This document shows positions 26,808-33,362 of a stretch of DNA of 33,362 nt, piece after piece. Position 1 is the stretch's first letter; each line of letters starts with the position of its first letter. The DNA is from Rhodocyclaceae bacterium. Lineage in GTDB: Bacteria; Pseudomonadota; Gammaproteobacteria; Burkholderiales; Rhodocyclaceae. Made by a program: the position numbers and the translations under genes. Location: the NCBI GenBank assembly GCA_905339315.1, contig CAJPFL010000153.1:1-33362 (forward strand), read 5' to 3'. Below the pieces are notes generated by a model, which was not told the DNA's origin, made no database searches, and saw only the letters and a program-made list of their open reading frames with translations.

Positions 26808-26857
26808 TGGTCGGGGCGGCGGGATTCGAACTCGCGACCCCTTGCACCCCATAACTA
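26808..26857 (-). other. 3' fragment of tRNA-Pro(GGG): attachment-site remnant
   Basis: Reading on the minus strand, sequence from the anticodon loop (ATGGGGT) through the 3' anticodon stem (GCAAG), T-arm (GTTCGAATC), acceptor CGCCCCG, discriminator A and CCA matches a tRNA-Pro. The 5' half is absent: the expected CTTGC stem before the loop is replaced by unrelated bases and no D-arm or 5' acceptor is found. One T-stem pair is an A-C mismatch, consistent with decay after loss of function. This is the usual footprint of tyrosine-recombinase integration in a tRNA anticodon loop. Confidence 0.8.
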
Positions 26858-26980
26858 CCTATGCAGGTTTCACGCGATTTCAGGCCGTTTCGCCCTTCGT
26901 CTAAAATACTTTACTGCTCAGCAAGTTAGGTATAAATTCGGTTTCAGCCTGTTCCACCGTTTTTCACCCCTTGCCGCCGC

Positions 26981-27064: not shown

Positions 27065-28324
27065 ATGGCAGAGAACAAACTCACCGACAAGCACCTGCGC
27101 AACCTCAAGCCCGCGGATGCCGAGCAAACTATCGGCGACGGCGGCGGCCTCTGGATTCGCGTCCTGCCCGCGGCCAAAGGCGGCGCCATCAACTTCTACT
27201 ACCGCTACACCTTCAACGGCAAGGAGCGCCGCTACAACTGCGGCACCTACCCCGACACCTCACTATCCCAGGCACGGAATCGCCGCAACGAGGCGCGAAA
27301 GCTCGTGAAGTCAGGTATAGACCCGACCCAGCACGAAGAAACCGCCAAGGCAAACCGCTCGGCCGCGCAGGCCCTGGAAAGAATGGAAAAAACGGTCGAG
27401 GGGCTGCTCGACGACTGGAAGCGGGTCTACCTCTCCGCGCACCGCAAGGATGGCGGCGCCGAGGTCGAGGCGGCCATGCGGCGCGACGTGATCCCTCTGC
27501 TCGGCAAGATGAGGGCGCGGGACGTCAAGCTGGCTCACGTCAATCAGGTCATCGACAGGGTGCTGGAGCGCGGCGTCAGGCGCACCGCGAATGTCTTGCT
27601 CTCCCTCATGCGCCAGATGTTCCGCCACGGGCTGGGCAGGAGCATCGTGGATACCGACCCCACCCTGGCCCTGTCGAAGAAGCAGGCCGGCGGCAAGGAA
27701 ACCCCGGTTGACCGCAATCTCTCCTTCGACGAGATCGCCGAACTCAGCGCCAAGCTGGCTGCCTCCGATCTGCACGAAAAGATGCGGGCCGCCATCTGGA
27801 TCCTGCTTGCCACAGGCGCCCGCATCGGCGAGTTGCTCAAGGCGCGCTGGGCCGACATCAACGAGCGCGAGAAAACCTGGACGATCCCGGCAGAGAATTC
27901 CAAGAACGGCCGCCCTCACCTCATTCATCTCTCGGCCTTCGCCATGAAGCAGCTGAAGACGATGAAGGAATACAAGGACGGCCCCTTCCTGCTGAGCGGC
28001 CGCGACCCTGACACGGGAATGTCCGACAAGACGGTATCCAAAGCCATCCGCGACCGCATTCGCAAGGAACCACTAAAAAAGCGCACCCCGCGGAGCGGCA
28101 CCCTGCTGCTCGCGGGCGGCGAATGGAGCCCGCACGACCTGCGCCGCACCATGGCCTCGCGCATGGGTGACGTCGGCATCGAGCCGCACGTGATCGAGCG
28201 CTGCCTCAACCACGTGCAACAGGGCATCGTCGGCGTCTATCAGCGGCAGGAATACATGAAGGAGCGCAAGGCTGCGTTCGAAACATGGGGCCGCAAGCTT
28301 GCAAGTCTGACCAAGCGCAAGTAA
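27065..28324 (+). CDS. int: P4-type tyrosine integrase
   Basis: Site-specific recombinase that integrates and excises the element at the tRNA gene. The 419 residues comprise an N-terminal DUF4102/arm-binding domain (LTDKHLRNLKPADAEQTIGDGGGLWIRV), a SAM-like core-binding domain (about 110-200) and the catalytic domain with all active-site residues: Arg253 (GARIGEL), Lys280 (SKNGRPH), His357 and Arg360 (HDLRRT), His383 (CLNHVQQ) and the nucleophile Tyr392 (GVYQRQEY). Nothing appears truncated. Its start is about 207 bases inside the tRNA-Pro fragment and it points away from it. A 185-residue reading through the tRNA remnant upstream is spurious. Confidence 0.96.
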   Translation: MAENKLTDKHLRNLKPADAEQTIGDGGGLWIRVLPAAKGGAINFYYRYTFNGKERRYNCGTYPDTSLSQARNRRNEARKLVKSGIDPTQHEETAKANRSAAQALERMEKTVEGLLDDWKRVYLSAHRKDGGAEVEAAMRRDVIPLLGKMRARDVKLAHVNQVIDRVLERGVRRTANVLLSLMRQMFRHGLGRSIVDTDPTLALSKKQAGGKETPVDRNLSFDEIAELSAKLAASDLHEKMRAAIWILLATGARIGELLKARWADINEREKTWTIPAENSKNGRPHLIHLSAFAMKQLKTMKEYKDGPFLLSGRDPDTGMSDKTVSKAIRDRIRKEPLKKRTPRSGTLLLAGGEWSPHDLRRTMASRMGDVGIEPHVIERCLNHVQQGIVGVYQRQEYMKERKAAFETWGRKLASLTKRK

Positions 28325-29700: not shown

Positions 29701-30071
29701 AGCTCTACTCAAGAATCCGCTACGCACCGTTCAAGGAGCAGTTCGCAGGGAAAAAAACCGCCTTCGCAACAAAAAATAGCTGCTGTCGGCGTTTCATTGC
29801 TCATGAGGAATTCCCTAAAGAGCTTCCTACCGCCGACGACTTCTATGCTGCTGAAATCGACGGCCTCAAGGAGTACCGCAACGGCTGGGCCTGGGGCCAC
29901 TGCCCTTTCCACGCAGACTCGAACCCGTCTTTCACGGTGAACCTGGACACGGGCGCCTTCCGCTGTATGTCTTCCTGTTGCGGTGTCTCTGGCTCGAATA
30001 TTGTCAGTTTTGTCAGTCAGCGCGACGGGCTCAGTTACCGCGAAGCCCGCCGCTTCCTGGAGGACTGGTGA
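29697..30071 (+). CDS. CHC2 zinc-finger primase-like protein
   Basis: A 124-residue protein with a C-terminal DnaG-type CHC2 zinc-binding domain: Cys69 and His72 in GHCPFHADSNPSFTV, Cys90 and Cys94/95 in FRCMSSCC, and the typical end GSNIVSFVSQRDGLSYREARRFLE. The TOPRIM and helicase parts of a full primase are absent. The zinc domain probably recognises template ssDNA and acts together with the following prim-pol domain. The stop overlaps the next ATG (TGATG). Two TTGTCAG repeats lie inside the coding sequence at 30001-30016. Confidence 0.9.
   Translation: MKLYSRIRYAPFKEQFAGKKTAFATKNSCCRRFIAHEEFPKELPTADDFYAAEIDGLKEYRNGWAWGHCPFHADSNPSFTVNLDTGAFRCMSSCCGVSGSNIVSFVSQRDGLSYREARRFLEDW
30001..30020 (+). 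repeat. TTGTCAG direct repeat pair inside the CHC2 gene
   Basis: TTGTCAG occurs at 30001 and again at 30010, a spacing of nine bases, followed by TCAG. The same pair with the same spacing appears in the palindrome at 32266-32306. Confidence 0.7.
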
Positions 30072-30703: not shown

Positions 30704-32241
30704 ATATCATGGAAATTCCCCTTTCCCTACTGGATCAGATCGACGAGTTCGATGGTGCCGATTGGCCCGAGCCGGAACCGCTCTCATTCAAACTGCTGCC
30801 CGTCGAGCCCTTTTCCGACAGCCTTCTCCCCGCAGAGCTGCTTCCATATGTGAACGACGTTACCGAGCGCATGCAATGCCCACCTGATTTCGTCGCCATC
30901 CCTGTGGTTGTCATGCTCGGCGCCTTGATCGGCAACGGCTGCTGCGTGCGCCCAAAGCAGCACGACGACTGGTCTGAATTCCCGAACATGTGGGGCGGCA
31001 TTATTGGTCGGCCTGGCCGACTCAAAAGTCCAGCGATGAGGGCTGGACTGGAGCCGTTGCGCTGGCTGGAAGGCGAGGCGCAGCTGGCTTTCGAAGCCGC
31101 GCAGCAGGCTCATGCCAGGGCGTTGGTCGAGCGCGAGATGGAGATCCAGCTGCTCAAGAGCACCAAAGCGAACAAGCGTAGCTGCGACCAGCAGAACAGG
31201 CTGACTGATCTGCTCATGAACGAGCCTGCCGAGCCGACATTGCTTCGCTATTCGAGCAATGATGCCACTGTCGAAAAGCTGGCGTTGCTCATGAAGGAAA
31301 ATACGCGCGGCCTCCTGGTCATGCGGGACGAGCTGGTCGGGCTTCTGGCGAACTGTGAGAAGCAGGGACATGAGGGTGACCGGGCGTTCTATCTTGAAGC
31401 CTGGGCGGGCAACTCCCGTTATGCCGTCGACCGCGTCGGACGCGGCACGACGATTGTCGAACATCTGACATTGTCCCTGTTCGGCGGCATTCAGCCGGCG
31501 AAGCTGCAGAGTTACTTGTACGAATCGCAATATGGCTTGGGCAACGACGGCCTGCTCCAGCGCTTTCAGTTGGTGGTCTACCCTGACGACGAACCGGCTT
31601 GGCGCATCGTGGACCGCGCGCCTGACAGAAAGGCGCTCGACAAGCTCATTGCCCTGTGCAGGAAGATTGCCGAAGGAAATTTCGACGCCTTGGGCGCCCA
31701 GCGCGATGAACACCGCTCAACACCTTTCTTCCGCTTCAGCCCTGAAGGACAGGAAGTCTTCAACGCGTGGTTCCTTGATTTGGGACGAAAGGTGGCGGCC
31801 GAAGAGCATCCCATCATCGCCGAGCATCTAGGTAAATATCGCAAGCTCGTGCCTGCGCTGTCGCTGATCTTCCATCTTGTCGCCCTCATTAGTGGCGGCG
31901 TACAGATTGGCTCATCGATCACGGTGGAGGCGTTGCGGAGGGCTTTGGCGTGGGCGAGGTATCTCGAAAGCCACTCACGCCGAATCTACAACATGGCGCT
32001 CGATGTCCACCAGGATGCCGTGCAGGCTCTGGCGGCGAAACTTAAATCTGGAGAGCTTGAGAACGGCTTCACGGAGCGGGATGCTTATCGCAAGGGCTGG
32101 GCGAATCTGACGGAGCCGGAAATCGTAGGCGCCGCCTGCCGCGAACTGGAGCAGGCCGGCTGGCTGCGCAGGTTGCCTCAGGAGCGTGCCGGCGGTCGCC
32201 CCACCGTACGCTACGAGATCAACCCGGCCGTGACAGTTTGA
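30700..32241 (+). CDS. DUF3987 P-loop protein of the replication module
   Basis: A 513-residue protein of the DUF3987 family, which commonly follows prim-pol domains in phage, plasmid and island replication modules. A P-loop-like segment at about 103-110 (GRPGRLKS) and a Walker B-like LLVMRDELVGLL near residue 200 suggest an ATPase, probably helicase-like. The loop departs from GxxxxGK[ST] by lacking the second Gly before Lys. The C-terminus (TERDAYRKGWANLTEPEIVGAACRELEQAGWLRRL) resembles a winged helix for DNA binding. The start at 30700 is fixed by ATGA overlap; a GTG 24 bases earlier is less likely. It ends 25 bases before a palindrome. Confidence 0.9.
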   Translation: MNIMEIPLSLLDQIDEFDGADWPEPEPLSFKLLPVEPFSDSLLPAELLPYVNDVTERMQCPPDFVAIPVVVMLGALIGNGCCVRPKQHDDWSEFPNMWGGIIGRPGRLKSPAMRAGLEPLRWLEGEAQLAFEAAQQAHARALVEREMEIQLLKSTKANKRSCDQQNRLTDLLMNEPAEPTLLRYSSNDATVEKLALLMKENTRGLLVMRDELVGLLANCEKQGHEGDRAFYLEAWAGNSRYAVDRVGRGTTIVEHLTLSLFGGIQPAKLQSYLYESQYGLGNDGLLQRFQLVVYPDDEPAWRIVDRAPDRKALDKLIALCRKIAEGNFDALGAQRDEHRSTPFFRFSPEGQEVFNAWFLDLGRKVAAEEHPIIAEHLGKYRKLVPALSLIFHLVALISGGVQIGSSITVEALRRALAWARYLESHSRRIYNMALDVHQDAVQALAAKLKSGELENGFTERDAYRKGWANLTEPEIVGAACRELEQAGWLRRLPQERAGGRPTVRYEINPAVTV

Positions 32242-32265
32242 TTGAAAACGGAAGTAGGGTAAGGG

Positions 32266-32306
32266 CTGACAAAACTGACAGAACCTGGTTTTGTCAGTAT
32301 TGTCAG
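32266..32306. repeat. 41-bp palindrome built from 9-bp TGACA repeats
   Basis: Two 20-base arms (32266-32285 and 32287-32306) match inversely at 18 of 20 positions around a single base. Each arm is made of two 9-base units (TGACAAAAC, TGACAGAAC; inverted GTTTTGTCA, GTATTGTCA). There is no T-run on either side. The SRAP stop codon lies inside the right arm. A related pair occurs at 30001-30016. It may be a binding site or origin for the element's replication proteins or a bidirectional stop between convergent genes. Confidence 0.8.
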
Positions 32307-32998
32307 CGCATCCCCTCTGATACTTCCTTGATCAGCCCCTCGCCCTCCGCCCCTGCCCTATTGACCGCCGTCCCTACCGCGTAGGCCGTCATCCCCTCGG
32401 GCGGCGCCGGCCCCAGCAAGGCCCTCAGCGCCGCGGTGGAGGCGTTTTCAGCCCCCAGCCAGGCGTCCCATGCTCCTGGCGCCAGGATCGCCGGCATGCG
32501 GTCGTGGATCGGCGCCATCAGGGCGTTGGCCTCGGTGGTGATGATGCAGGCCGTGACGAGGTCTTCCCCGGTGCCCGACCGCCACCTTGCCAACAGCCCG
32601 GCAAACGCGAACAGCCCATCGCCCTCTGCTGGACGCACATAGTACGGCTGGCGGCGTACCTTGCCGTTCTCGCTCACCACCTTCCACTCATAGAAGCCGC
32701 TGGCCGGGATCAGGCAGCGGTGCCGGGCGAAGCTGCTGCGAAAAGAGGGCTTGGTTTCGACCGTCTCGGCGCGGGCGTTGATGAGCTTAGCCCCGATGCT
32801 CGGGTCTTTCGCCCAGGCGGGCACCAGCCCCCAGCGCACCAACTGCCCGATCCGCCCAACTTCCGGCCGGTGCCGGACAACCAGGATGTCGCTCGTCGGG
32901 GCGATGTTGTAGCGGGGTGCGAGCAGAGGGCAGTCCGCCAGGCTGAACTTCTCGGCTACGCGGGTGGAAGGGGCATCGAGGGCAAAACGGCCGCACAT
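32303..32998 (-). CDS. SRAP-family protein (YedK/HMCES-like, SOS response-associated)
   Basis: Forms a DNA-protein crosslink with abasic sites in single-stranded DNA, shielding them from cleavage. The 231-residue protein has the catalytic Cys2 exposed after Met removal (MCGRF), Asn74 (INARAETV), Glu104 (SGFYEW) and His165 (APIHDRMP), the same set and nearly the same numbering as E. coli YedK. The start at 32998 is dictated by Cys2, since an upstream in-frame Met would bury it. It is convergent with the DUF3987 gene, the stop lying in the palindrome. It may belong to the element or to the host. Confidence 0.95.
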   Translation of the reverse strand: MCGRFALDAPSTRVAEKFSLADCPLLAPRYNIAPTSDILVVRHRPEVGRIGQLVRWGLVPAWAKDPSIGAKLINARAETVETKPSFRSSFARHRCLIPASGFYEWKVVSENGKVRRQPYYVRPAEGDGLFAFAGLLARWRSGTGEDLVTACIITTEANALMAPIHDRMPAILAPGAWDAWLGAENASTAALRALLGPAPPEGMTAYAVGTAVNRAGAEGEGLIKEVSEGMR

Positions 32999-33063
32999 GG
33001 GCGAATTATCCGCCGAACTAGAGCCAACCATGCCCTGCAGGCTGAAGGTGATAATCGGCCATT

Positions 33064-33151: not shown

Positions 33152-33362
33152 CTACCGTAAGCGATTTCTCTTGCCAGTTGCGAACATGCCCTCCCCTTTG
33201 TCTATCATGGAAAGCATGCGTGAGGACTGTTCATCACCATGTTTGGCAGCTTGCTGCATCAAATAAACCGCGCGCTCCATGTCCCGGGTAACACCTCCCT
33301 TCCCGGTAGCCAACAACATGCCGAGCGTGCCCATCGCCCCAATATGCCCTGTCTGGGCTGCC
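33152..33362 (-). CDS. Sel1-like repeat protein, C-terminal part (runs off the right edge)
   Basis: About 70 codons are visible. A Sel1-like (SEL1/TPR-type) repeat is clear: GHIGAMGTLGMLLATGKGGV followed by DMERAVYLMQQAAKHGDEQSSRML, which matches the family's helix-turn-helix spacing with conserved A, G and L positions. A short basic tail follows and the TAG is at 33152-33154. The frame stays open to the window end, so the true start is outside. Such repeats mediate protein-protein contacts. Whether the gene is part of the element is unknown. Confidence 0.75.
   Translation of the reverse strand, partial: AAQTGHIGAMGTLGMLLATGKGGVTRDMERAVYLMQQAAKHGDEQSSRMLSMIDKGEGMFATGKRNRLR

Follow-up and report, generated by a model that had tools for sequence, protein, structure and literature searches.

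A palindrome of 9-bp repeats beside a DUF3987 helicase gene, a probable replication origin of an integrative element

The element and its palindrome

The window (the whole stretch of DNA analysed, 33,362 nucleotides) is a single contig, the right end of which is occupied by an integrative element. A tyrosine integrase gene is followed by two frames without a family match, by overlapping genes for a CHC2 zinc-finger protein, a Prim-Pol primase and a DUF3987 protein, and then by a palindrome (Table 1). The ATG of the DUF3987 gene overlaps the Prim-Pol stop codon. The DUF3987 protein matched PF13148 with 263.9 bits, compared to a gathering score of 27, which places it in this family. DUF3987 was its sole domain: neither DUF927 nor Primase_Cterm/D5 was found in a Pfam scan at E 0.001. 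On the other side of the palindrome lies a convergent gene for an SOS-response associated peptidase (SRAP), a protein also present in 3 of 15 other genomes of the same genus.

Table 1. Positions of the features discussed, numbered from the first letter of the window
Feature	Positions	Strand	Description
Tyrosine integrase of the element	27065..28324	+	Pfam PF13356, PF00589, PF22022
CHC2 zinc-finger gene, 124 aa	29697..30071	+	Pfam PF01807, E 8.5e-12
Echo half-site	30002..30016	-	within the CHC2 gene; codes for IVSFVS
Prim-Pol primase gene, 210 aa	30071..30703	+	Pfam PF09250, E 2.3e-15 (scanned from upstream start 29978)
DUF3987 gene, 513 aa	30700..32241	+	Pfam PF13148, E 3.3e-78 (scanned from upstream start 30676)
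Codons of covarying helix 459-464 (Arg460, Arg464)	32074..32091	+	AlphaFold helix and covariation
Extended imperfect palindrome	32250..32327	none	outer inverted repeat GGAAGTA (32250-32256) / TACTTCC (32321-32327)
Left arm	32266..32280	+	units CTGACAAAA (32266-32274) and CTGACAGAA (32275-32283, 3 bases past the 15-bp arm)
Right arm	32292..32306	-	minus-strand units CTGACAATA (32306-32298) and CTGACAAAA (32297-32289), reading towards the centre
SRAP (SOS-response associated peptidase) gene	32303-33031	-	converges on the palindrome; stop codon inside the right arm

The contig stops at position 33362, and the element ends beyond view. No attachment repeat was found between the integrase flank and the right end, where the longest match was a G+C-rich one of 14 bp. 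Just upstream of the integrase, on the minus strand at 26808-26852, lies a T-arm-like stretch, GGGTCGCGAGTTCGAATCCCGCC. It resembles the 3' end of a gene for a tRNA or a tmRNA, and is a possible attachment site of the element. Rfam gave a sub-threshold tmRNA match at 26808-26894 (E 2.1e-4), and ARAGORN calls no gene there.

The palindrome at 32266-32306 reads CTGACAAAACTGACAGAACCTGGTTTTGTCAGTATTGTCAG. Its centre is a single base (32286), around which 18 of 20 arm positions match. This is the top odd-centre palindrome of that arm length in the whole window, and when the window was shuffled 30 times with dinucleotides preserved, the best score per shuffle was 13 to 15. A preliminary description had noticed this 41-bp palindrome and the two direct 9-bp units in each arm, and the sequence bears out both; the boundaries of the units were defined by comparison with relatives. 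The arms are separated by an 11-bp spacer, GAACCTGGTTT, that has no A/T-rich stretch. The outer inverted repeat lengthens the symmetry, and the predicted RNA fold is strong (-42.2 kcal/mol, z -7.5). No T-run was found at the palindrome, as the preliminary description had stated, so that it does not qualify as an intrinsic terminator, that is, a G+C-rich hairpin followed by a T-run.

Only three CTGAC-N4-CTGAC pairs exist in the window: the left arm, the right arm, and an echo inside the CHC2 gene. In the assembly to which the contig belongs (2.28 Mb, 77% complete), the same three sites are the only matches to the 15-mer at up to 1 mismatch, with one more at 2 mismatches. A lone 15-mer is unspecific, being found at 1 mismatch in 30 of 199 genomes of the family, compared to 13 (a manual count) for a reversed control pattern. 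The paired palindrome was found in the element's own genome and in three of the genomes with the lone 15-mer. A search of phage and plasmid DNA gave no match, and a search for related loci returned no relatives.

Period-9 repeats downstream of DUF3987 genes

DUF3987 genes above the family cut-off are present in 57 of 398 genomes of the phylum. The association between the palindrome and these genes was analysed from both sides, starting either from the DNA pattern or from the protein.

For the first search, the pattern CTGACARNACTGACA-N(5-25)-TGTCAGTNYTGTCAG was scanned over about 85,000 genomes plus viral contigs. This yielded 46 loci in genome contigs of several phyla (a single Dactylosporangium genome accounts for three of them, a single Aquidulcibacter assembly for two) and 3 loci in viral contigs, and a profile built from DUF3987 proteins was run on all 49. 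In 30 of the 46 genome loci and 1 of the 3 viral loci, the palindrome lies downstream of a DUF3987 match and starts 16 to 176 bp past its end, which amounts to 31 of 49 loci and 32 of 51 palindromes. The hosts include Bosea (L145), a Planctomycetaceae MAG (L146), Prosthecobacter (L156), Candidatus Kurthia (L161), Dactylosporangium (L163), Zoogloea (L178) and Marinobacter (L186). At L152, the DUF3987 gene is adjoined by a near-perfect palindrome of its own; at L159 and L160, DUF3987 is present in a different geometry, and at L177 an N-terminal part of DUF3987 lies on the opposite side. No DUF3987 match was found in 12 of the 46 genome loci, five of these palindromes being less than 230 bp from the end of the locus.

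The neighbours of pattern loci without DUF3987 were sampled by scanning 10 proteins from 8 loci (L150, L151, L154, L157, L162 and L179 were left out). Those in L155, L173 and L192 were transketolase/GAPDH, an X-Pro peptidase and DNA methylases, while no clear family was found among the proteins scanned from L165, L171, L174 and L191. At L175 (7945-7995), a palindrome of the same type lies 270 bp past a gene for an AAA_25 helicase-like protein that has a C-terminal HTH, a hint that a second class of initiators may use repeats of this kind. In Emergencia and Eubacterium (L150, L154, L173 and L171, L179), the pattern occurs several times per genome with no DUF3987 match; in these two Bacillota genomes it may represent another dispersed palindrome.

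For the second search, DUF3987 genes were collected by protein or Pfam search, independently of the palindrome, and each 350-bp downstream stretch was scored, period by period, for a pair of direct and a pair of inverted 6-mers, with a threshold of at least 32 of 36. At period 9, this threshold was reached by 39 of 65 DUF3987 loci (a few near-duplicates being kept), while control segments reached it in 2 of 370 cases. The other periods tried, 7, 8 and 10 to 14, gave only 0 to 2 of the same 65 loci. In an enlarged set taken outside the pattern loci, with identical C-termini removed, 76 of 167 distinct genes had such repeats at period 9, compared to 0 to 9 when the period was changed; none of the 167 had them once the sequence was shuffled (one mononucleotide shuffle per gene). 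Enrichment around such modules, which the preliminary description had named as a check, was therefore positive in both directions. The remaining 91 of the 167 genes were below threshold; among those listed, some have direct 9-bp repeats only, and in others nothing was recognised. No 9-bp palindrome was found for E. coli K-12 yfjI (CP4-57) in the 350 bp starting 30 bp before the gene end.

The spelling of the unit differs from element to element, with CTGACAAAA, CTGCCAAAA, CCTACAAAA, CCATCAAAA, CCTTCAAAA, GCGACTTCT, GCTAATCCT, TCGACAAAC and TTCGCATAA among others. Since the spelling varies while the geometry is fixed and the gene adjacent, the repeats look as expected of the cognate site of a diversifying DNA-binding protein. 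The distance between the best-scoring arms exceeds 100 bp in several relatives (for example 147 in L138 and 159 in L111). The Bartonella plasmid pBT01 carries such repeats and was considered as proof that the module is autonomous; this was rejected because the plasmid also encodes RepC, and it is thus no demonstration of the module replicating alone.

In many relatives (L108, L109 and L041, for example), the repeats are located inside a small open frame that begins near the DUF3987 stop (MSLL... or MSWL...), in which the 9-bp period is read as three-residue repeats such as TPATSAT. Hypothetical proteins deduced from such frames may be by-products of iterons.

The echo inside CHC2 (30001-30016, TTGTCAGTTTTGTCAG) was noticed in the preliminary description, and its existence, its distance of 2.27 kb from the palindrome and its likeness to the right arm (15 of 16 bases) all stand; bases 30002-30016 are the exact reverse complement of the 15 bases of the left arm. 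As a conserved part of the module, the echo was rejected on the basis of 28 relatives, which are without an own-arm half-site of that quality away from the array. Own-arm matches upstream were no better than those of foreign arms, save two hits beside the palindrome itself: the best match had 2 to 5 mismatches in 26 of the 28, compared to means of 3.1 to 5.7 for the arms of other elements (L035, L051 and L065 had little upstream sequence), and in the other two (L038, L077) an exact hit was found no more than about 50 bp from the DUF3987 stop codon, either within the array or next to it. Among the pattern loci, 11 single-arm half-sites with at most 2 mismatches were found more than 200 bp from the palindrome, where we estimate that about 0.7 would be expected in 360 kb. 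The two in L152 are its own palindrome, L146, L185 and L193 have theirs within the module, and the remaining six belong to L156, L162 and L174. An exact 15-mer within CHC2 is unlikely to be a product of chance, and we take it for a secondary binding site that occurs occasionally, with helicase handcuffing or auxiliary loading as conjectural roles. The Verrucomicrobia loci L156, L162 and L174 contain three-unit tandem arrays of the same repeat, 0.9 to 3.2 kb from the palindrome, and L162 and L174 have no DUF3987 match.

Covariation between DUF3987 residues and unit bases

An AlphaFold model of the DUF3987 protein, built with 22 sequences, had a mean pLDDT of 88.8. Its predicted layout consists of an MCM-like AAA+ core (residues 45-428) and a C-terminal winged helix (437-507), the latter made up of helix 437-450, strand 456-458, helices 459-464 and 473-485, and strands 489-494 and 502-507. 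The best 50 Foldseek matches of the model were all entries of MCM complexes (top E 1.1e-5). VIA-align to an MCM-DNA structure gave a Z of 18.1 and an rmsd of 3.6 over 271 residues, with 12-16% sequence identity among the matches listed. The winged helix alone gave weak Foldseek matches to MarR-, GntR- and Fur-type regulators (best E 0.011), and a sequence-profile search against solved structures yielded nothing significant (best E 0.084). The protein is predicted to be an AAA+ helicase of the MCM type that ends in a winged helix.

Covariation was analysed on the 98 distinct elements scoring at least 32 (76 non-pattern, 22 pattern-chosen), which were split by winged-helix motif. Subfamily 1 comprised 44 elements, 19 of them pattern-chosen, and subfamily 2 comprised 29; the other 25 fell outside both, and were neither registered nor counted. 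Units were registered within each subfamily with base 3 ignored. An MI scan was then run between the C-terminal 330 DUF3987 residues and the 9 unit positions, about 2,800 pairs, with near-duplicates dropped and, in subfamily 1, pattern-chosen loci dropped as well (n=23; n=28 for subfamily 2).

The pair formed by residue 464 and unit base 3 ranked first in both subfamilies (of 2826 pairs, z 14.0, in subfamily 1; of 2745 pairs, z 9.5, in subfamily 2). Next in subfamily 2 came residue 460 with base 5 (z 7.9). Subfamily 1 had (464, 2) in second place, because residue 460 and base 5 are invariant there (Arg with C in 44 of 44, hence no contrast). The tables for residue 464 were as follows. In subfamily 1, Arg was found with G in 38 of 38 elements, 19 of which had been selected by a pattern containing G, and Gln or Val with T or A in 6 of 6 (Q-T 2, Q-A 1, V-T 2, V-A 1). 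In subfamily 2, Arg was found with G in 10 of 11 elements (R-T in the other) and Gln with a base other than G in 15 of 15 (Q-T 13, Q-C 2), with single cases of H-G, K-T and N-T. For residue 460 in subfamily 2, Arg or Lys was found with C in 13 of 13 elements (R 10, K 3); the other residues were found with A or T in 15 of 16, the remaining one being N-C.

The two switches also occur in combination: R460/R464 is found with G3 C5, and S or T460/Q464 with T3 and A5 or T5. Mixed combinations exist, such as K460/Q464 with T3 C5 (L121) and A460/H464 with G3 A5 (L268). Exceptions to the rule are L269 (R with T), L270 (K with T), and L138 and L144 (Q with C); the last two look orientation-flipped, and were counted as they stood. 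The preliminary description had suggested iteron-like repeats and, as an inference, a replication origin or recognition site for prim-pol/DUF3987; this proposal is supported, and of the two proteins it is DUF3987 to which the covariation, scanned over DUF3987 columns, points. Residues 460 and 464 are one turn apart on the predicted helix 459-464, and the paired bases are two apart in the unit, which would be consistent with this helix being seated in the major groove. An Arg-G pairing is a usual contact; in the textbook winged helix, the usual DNA reader is the next helix, after the one bearing 460 and 464.

In some elements of subfamily 1, a loose A/T block of the TTTTC-N-GAAAA type lies outside the arms. 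TTTC-N1-3-GAAA was found within 60 bp of the arms in 5 of 44 elements, compared to 5 of 589 control pieces, and a stricter form in 3 of 44 compared to 3 of 589. The block is possibly a melting site or a site for a second protein.

Relatedness is ignored by the Fisher value given below, and is partly taken into account by nearest-relative pairs. In disjoint nearest-relative pairs where base 3 changes, residue 464 changes in 16 of 18, compared to 5 of 24 same-base pairs; where base 5 changes, residue 460 changes in 13 of 13, compared to 7 of 25. As the remaining winged-helix residues differ at a rate of 0.49-0.65 in the same base-change pairs, the excess at 464 and 460 is clear, not enormous. 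Two of the 16 changes at 464 and two of the 13 at 460 are of kinds that the rule does not cover (for example K-R in L270/L265, N-S in L062/L120 and S-T in L057/L117), and in L138/L291 and L269/L123 the base differs with the residue unchanged. The closest rule-following pairs share 0.78-0.90 of aligned residues before the winged helix; examples are L062/L060, L267/L273, L061/L063 and L289/L290 at 464, and L268/L263 at 460. L269/L123 (identity 0.77) breaks the rule at 464.

The rule was first seen on 53 elements, and the idea was recorded before loci L200-L316 were fetched. In these, R or K was found with G in 9 and with another base in 2 (L269, L270), and Q or V with a base other than G in 6 of 6 (Fisher p 0.0023). 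Test locus L293 is almost identical to L120, which belongs to the training set, and L268 (H with G) and L274 (N with T) are outside the rule. The first, global registration, in which base 3 was ignored, gave for residue 464 R with A 2, C 5, G 50 and T 8, Q with A 13 and T 5, V with A 1 and T 2, and K with G 6. It misplaced several units, and was replaced by registration within subfamilies, with fixed orientation and then with both orientations allowed. Since this change followed a table already holding test loci, the test was not fully blind. In both the global and the within-subfamily registration, Q or V at 464 was never found with G. Finally, a partial Mantel test gave r 0.24 for unit versus winged helix given the core (0 of 1000 permutations) and r 0.15 for unit versus core given the winged helix (5 of 1000), which is suggestive only.

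Interpretation and comparison with known systems

To judge from the covariation, the DUF3987 helicase itself very probably reads the repeats. Cognate iterons of a self-recognising initiator helicase would most likely be the replication origin of the element, as in SaPI and SCCmec. We thus consider it likely that the palindrome consists of 2+2 inverted 9-bp iterons cognate to the adjoining DUF3987 initiator helicase, and that the excised element starts its replication there, next to the helicase gene. Each arm would be occupied by a set of DUF3987 subunits bound through their winged helices, the two sets face to face, with residue 464 reading unit base 3 and residue 460 reading unit base 5. The facing sets would assemble or load the ring helicase, which would melt the DNA, and Prim-Pol, perhaps guided by the CHC2 protein, would prime synthesis. 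Physical binding, ring formation and loading, origin firing and the role of the primase genes are steps that we infer. With somewhat less confidence, we favour a broader view in which mobile elements of several phyla carry MCM-like initiators from one large family, DUF3987, that recognise their own sites; every member would have a 9-bp iteron palindrome to itself, and at least two unit bases could be read from two winged-helix residues (at 464, Arg for G and Gln or Val for T or A; at 460, Arg or Lys for C and small residues for A or T).

The DUF3987 protein could bind this site for a purpose other than initiation, such as regulation of a downstream gene, partition or copy control, or marking a landing site for integration or packaging. 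The covariation supports binding specificity only, not function, and in many relatives the repeats are within the small open frame or beside another gene. Such a role appears improbable, however, given that the site lies downstream of the helicase gene, like SaPI origins and the putative SCCmec origin in the account of PMC7581432, and that DUF3987 has a predicted replicative-helicase fold and is accompanied by two primase genes. It is much less probable still that the Prim-Pol or CHC2 protein reads the repeats, the DUF3987 covariation being inherited linkage only: the primase genes do share the module and relatedness does inflate covariation, but the same DUF3987 pair tops two subfamilies (in a scan made of DUF3987 columns), and relatives at 0.78-0.90 identity switch residue and base together. 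The region between the DUF3987 and SRAP genes might instead form a bidirectional terminator or an RNA hairpin, for which the strong predicted fold and the convergence of the two genes would speak. This is disfavoured to a similar degree, because the T-run is absent, a terminator has no need for a 9-bp internal period (other periods being rare), the arms are more than 100 bp apart in several relatives, and the unit bases co-vary with protein residues.

With a helicase-read iteron origin probable in this window, DUF3987, whose function has so far been a prediction only (helicase, in the account of PMC5862659), can be assigned a binding site and an origin, both probable, as well as a rule from residue to base that lends itself to testing. 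It is now possible to find such origins from sequence, in plasmids as well as integrative elements and across several phyla. The paired changes suggest that, between close relatives, an initiator and its origin change specificity in concert. If true, such co-switching would split the elements into separate replication-specificity groups, and the origins would be predictable from the protein alone.

Our literature search, with subscription papers mostly outside its scope, found no paper on DUF3987 together with iterons, and the consulted passages of PMC5862659 and PMC10803314 make no mention of repeats of this kind. The former predicts a helicase function for DUF3987 and, as a speculation, has the PolpTN2 primase locate its plasmid's origin by means of its winged helix. 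The latter describes the PICMI satellites of Vibrionaceae, which share with the present element an integrase and a gene of the DUF3987 type, in their case a primase gene that takes part in replication; its passages on DUF3987, origin, repeats, iterons and primase name no origin repeats. PICMIs carry AlpA and insert next to fis (PMC10803314), whereas no AlpA match was found among the 8 window proteins scanned. The likeness to MCM replicative helicases lies in the predicted AAA+ core fold with a winged helix after it, at the low sequence identity given above.

In one Gram-negative PICI, a rep-ori segment maintains a plasmid, and in PICI origins of this type two sets of iterons lie immediately 3' of the rep gene, much as the two arms lie here (PMC6092414). 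The PICI sets flank an A/T-rich region, whereas those of the window are 11 bp apart with no A/T-rich core. Another parallel comes from SaPI Rep and SCCmec Cch2, which recognise repeats directly downstream of their own genes through a C-terminal domain; such helicase-adjacent repeats are described as the initiation site for SaPI Rep and proposed as such for Cch2 (PMC7581432). The window likewise has short repeats directly downstream of the putative initiator helicase gene, 24 bp past its stop codon, a predicted helicase with a putative C-terminal DNA-binding domain (here the predicted winged helix), and priming genes nearby. SaPI and Cch2 repeats are specific for the cognate protein, and here residue-base covariation points indirectly to cognate recognition. 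The families differ, Cch having DUF927 and Cch2 and SaPI5 Rep having Primase_Cterm/D5 (PMC7581432), compared to DUF3987 only in the present protein. Unlike the SaPI and SCCmec repeats, as described there, those adjoining DUF3987 genes are 9-bp units at a fixed 9-bp spacing, arranged as a 2+2 palindrome, and they come in many spellings with a readable residue-base pairing.
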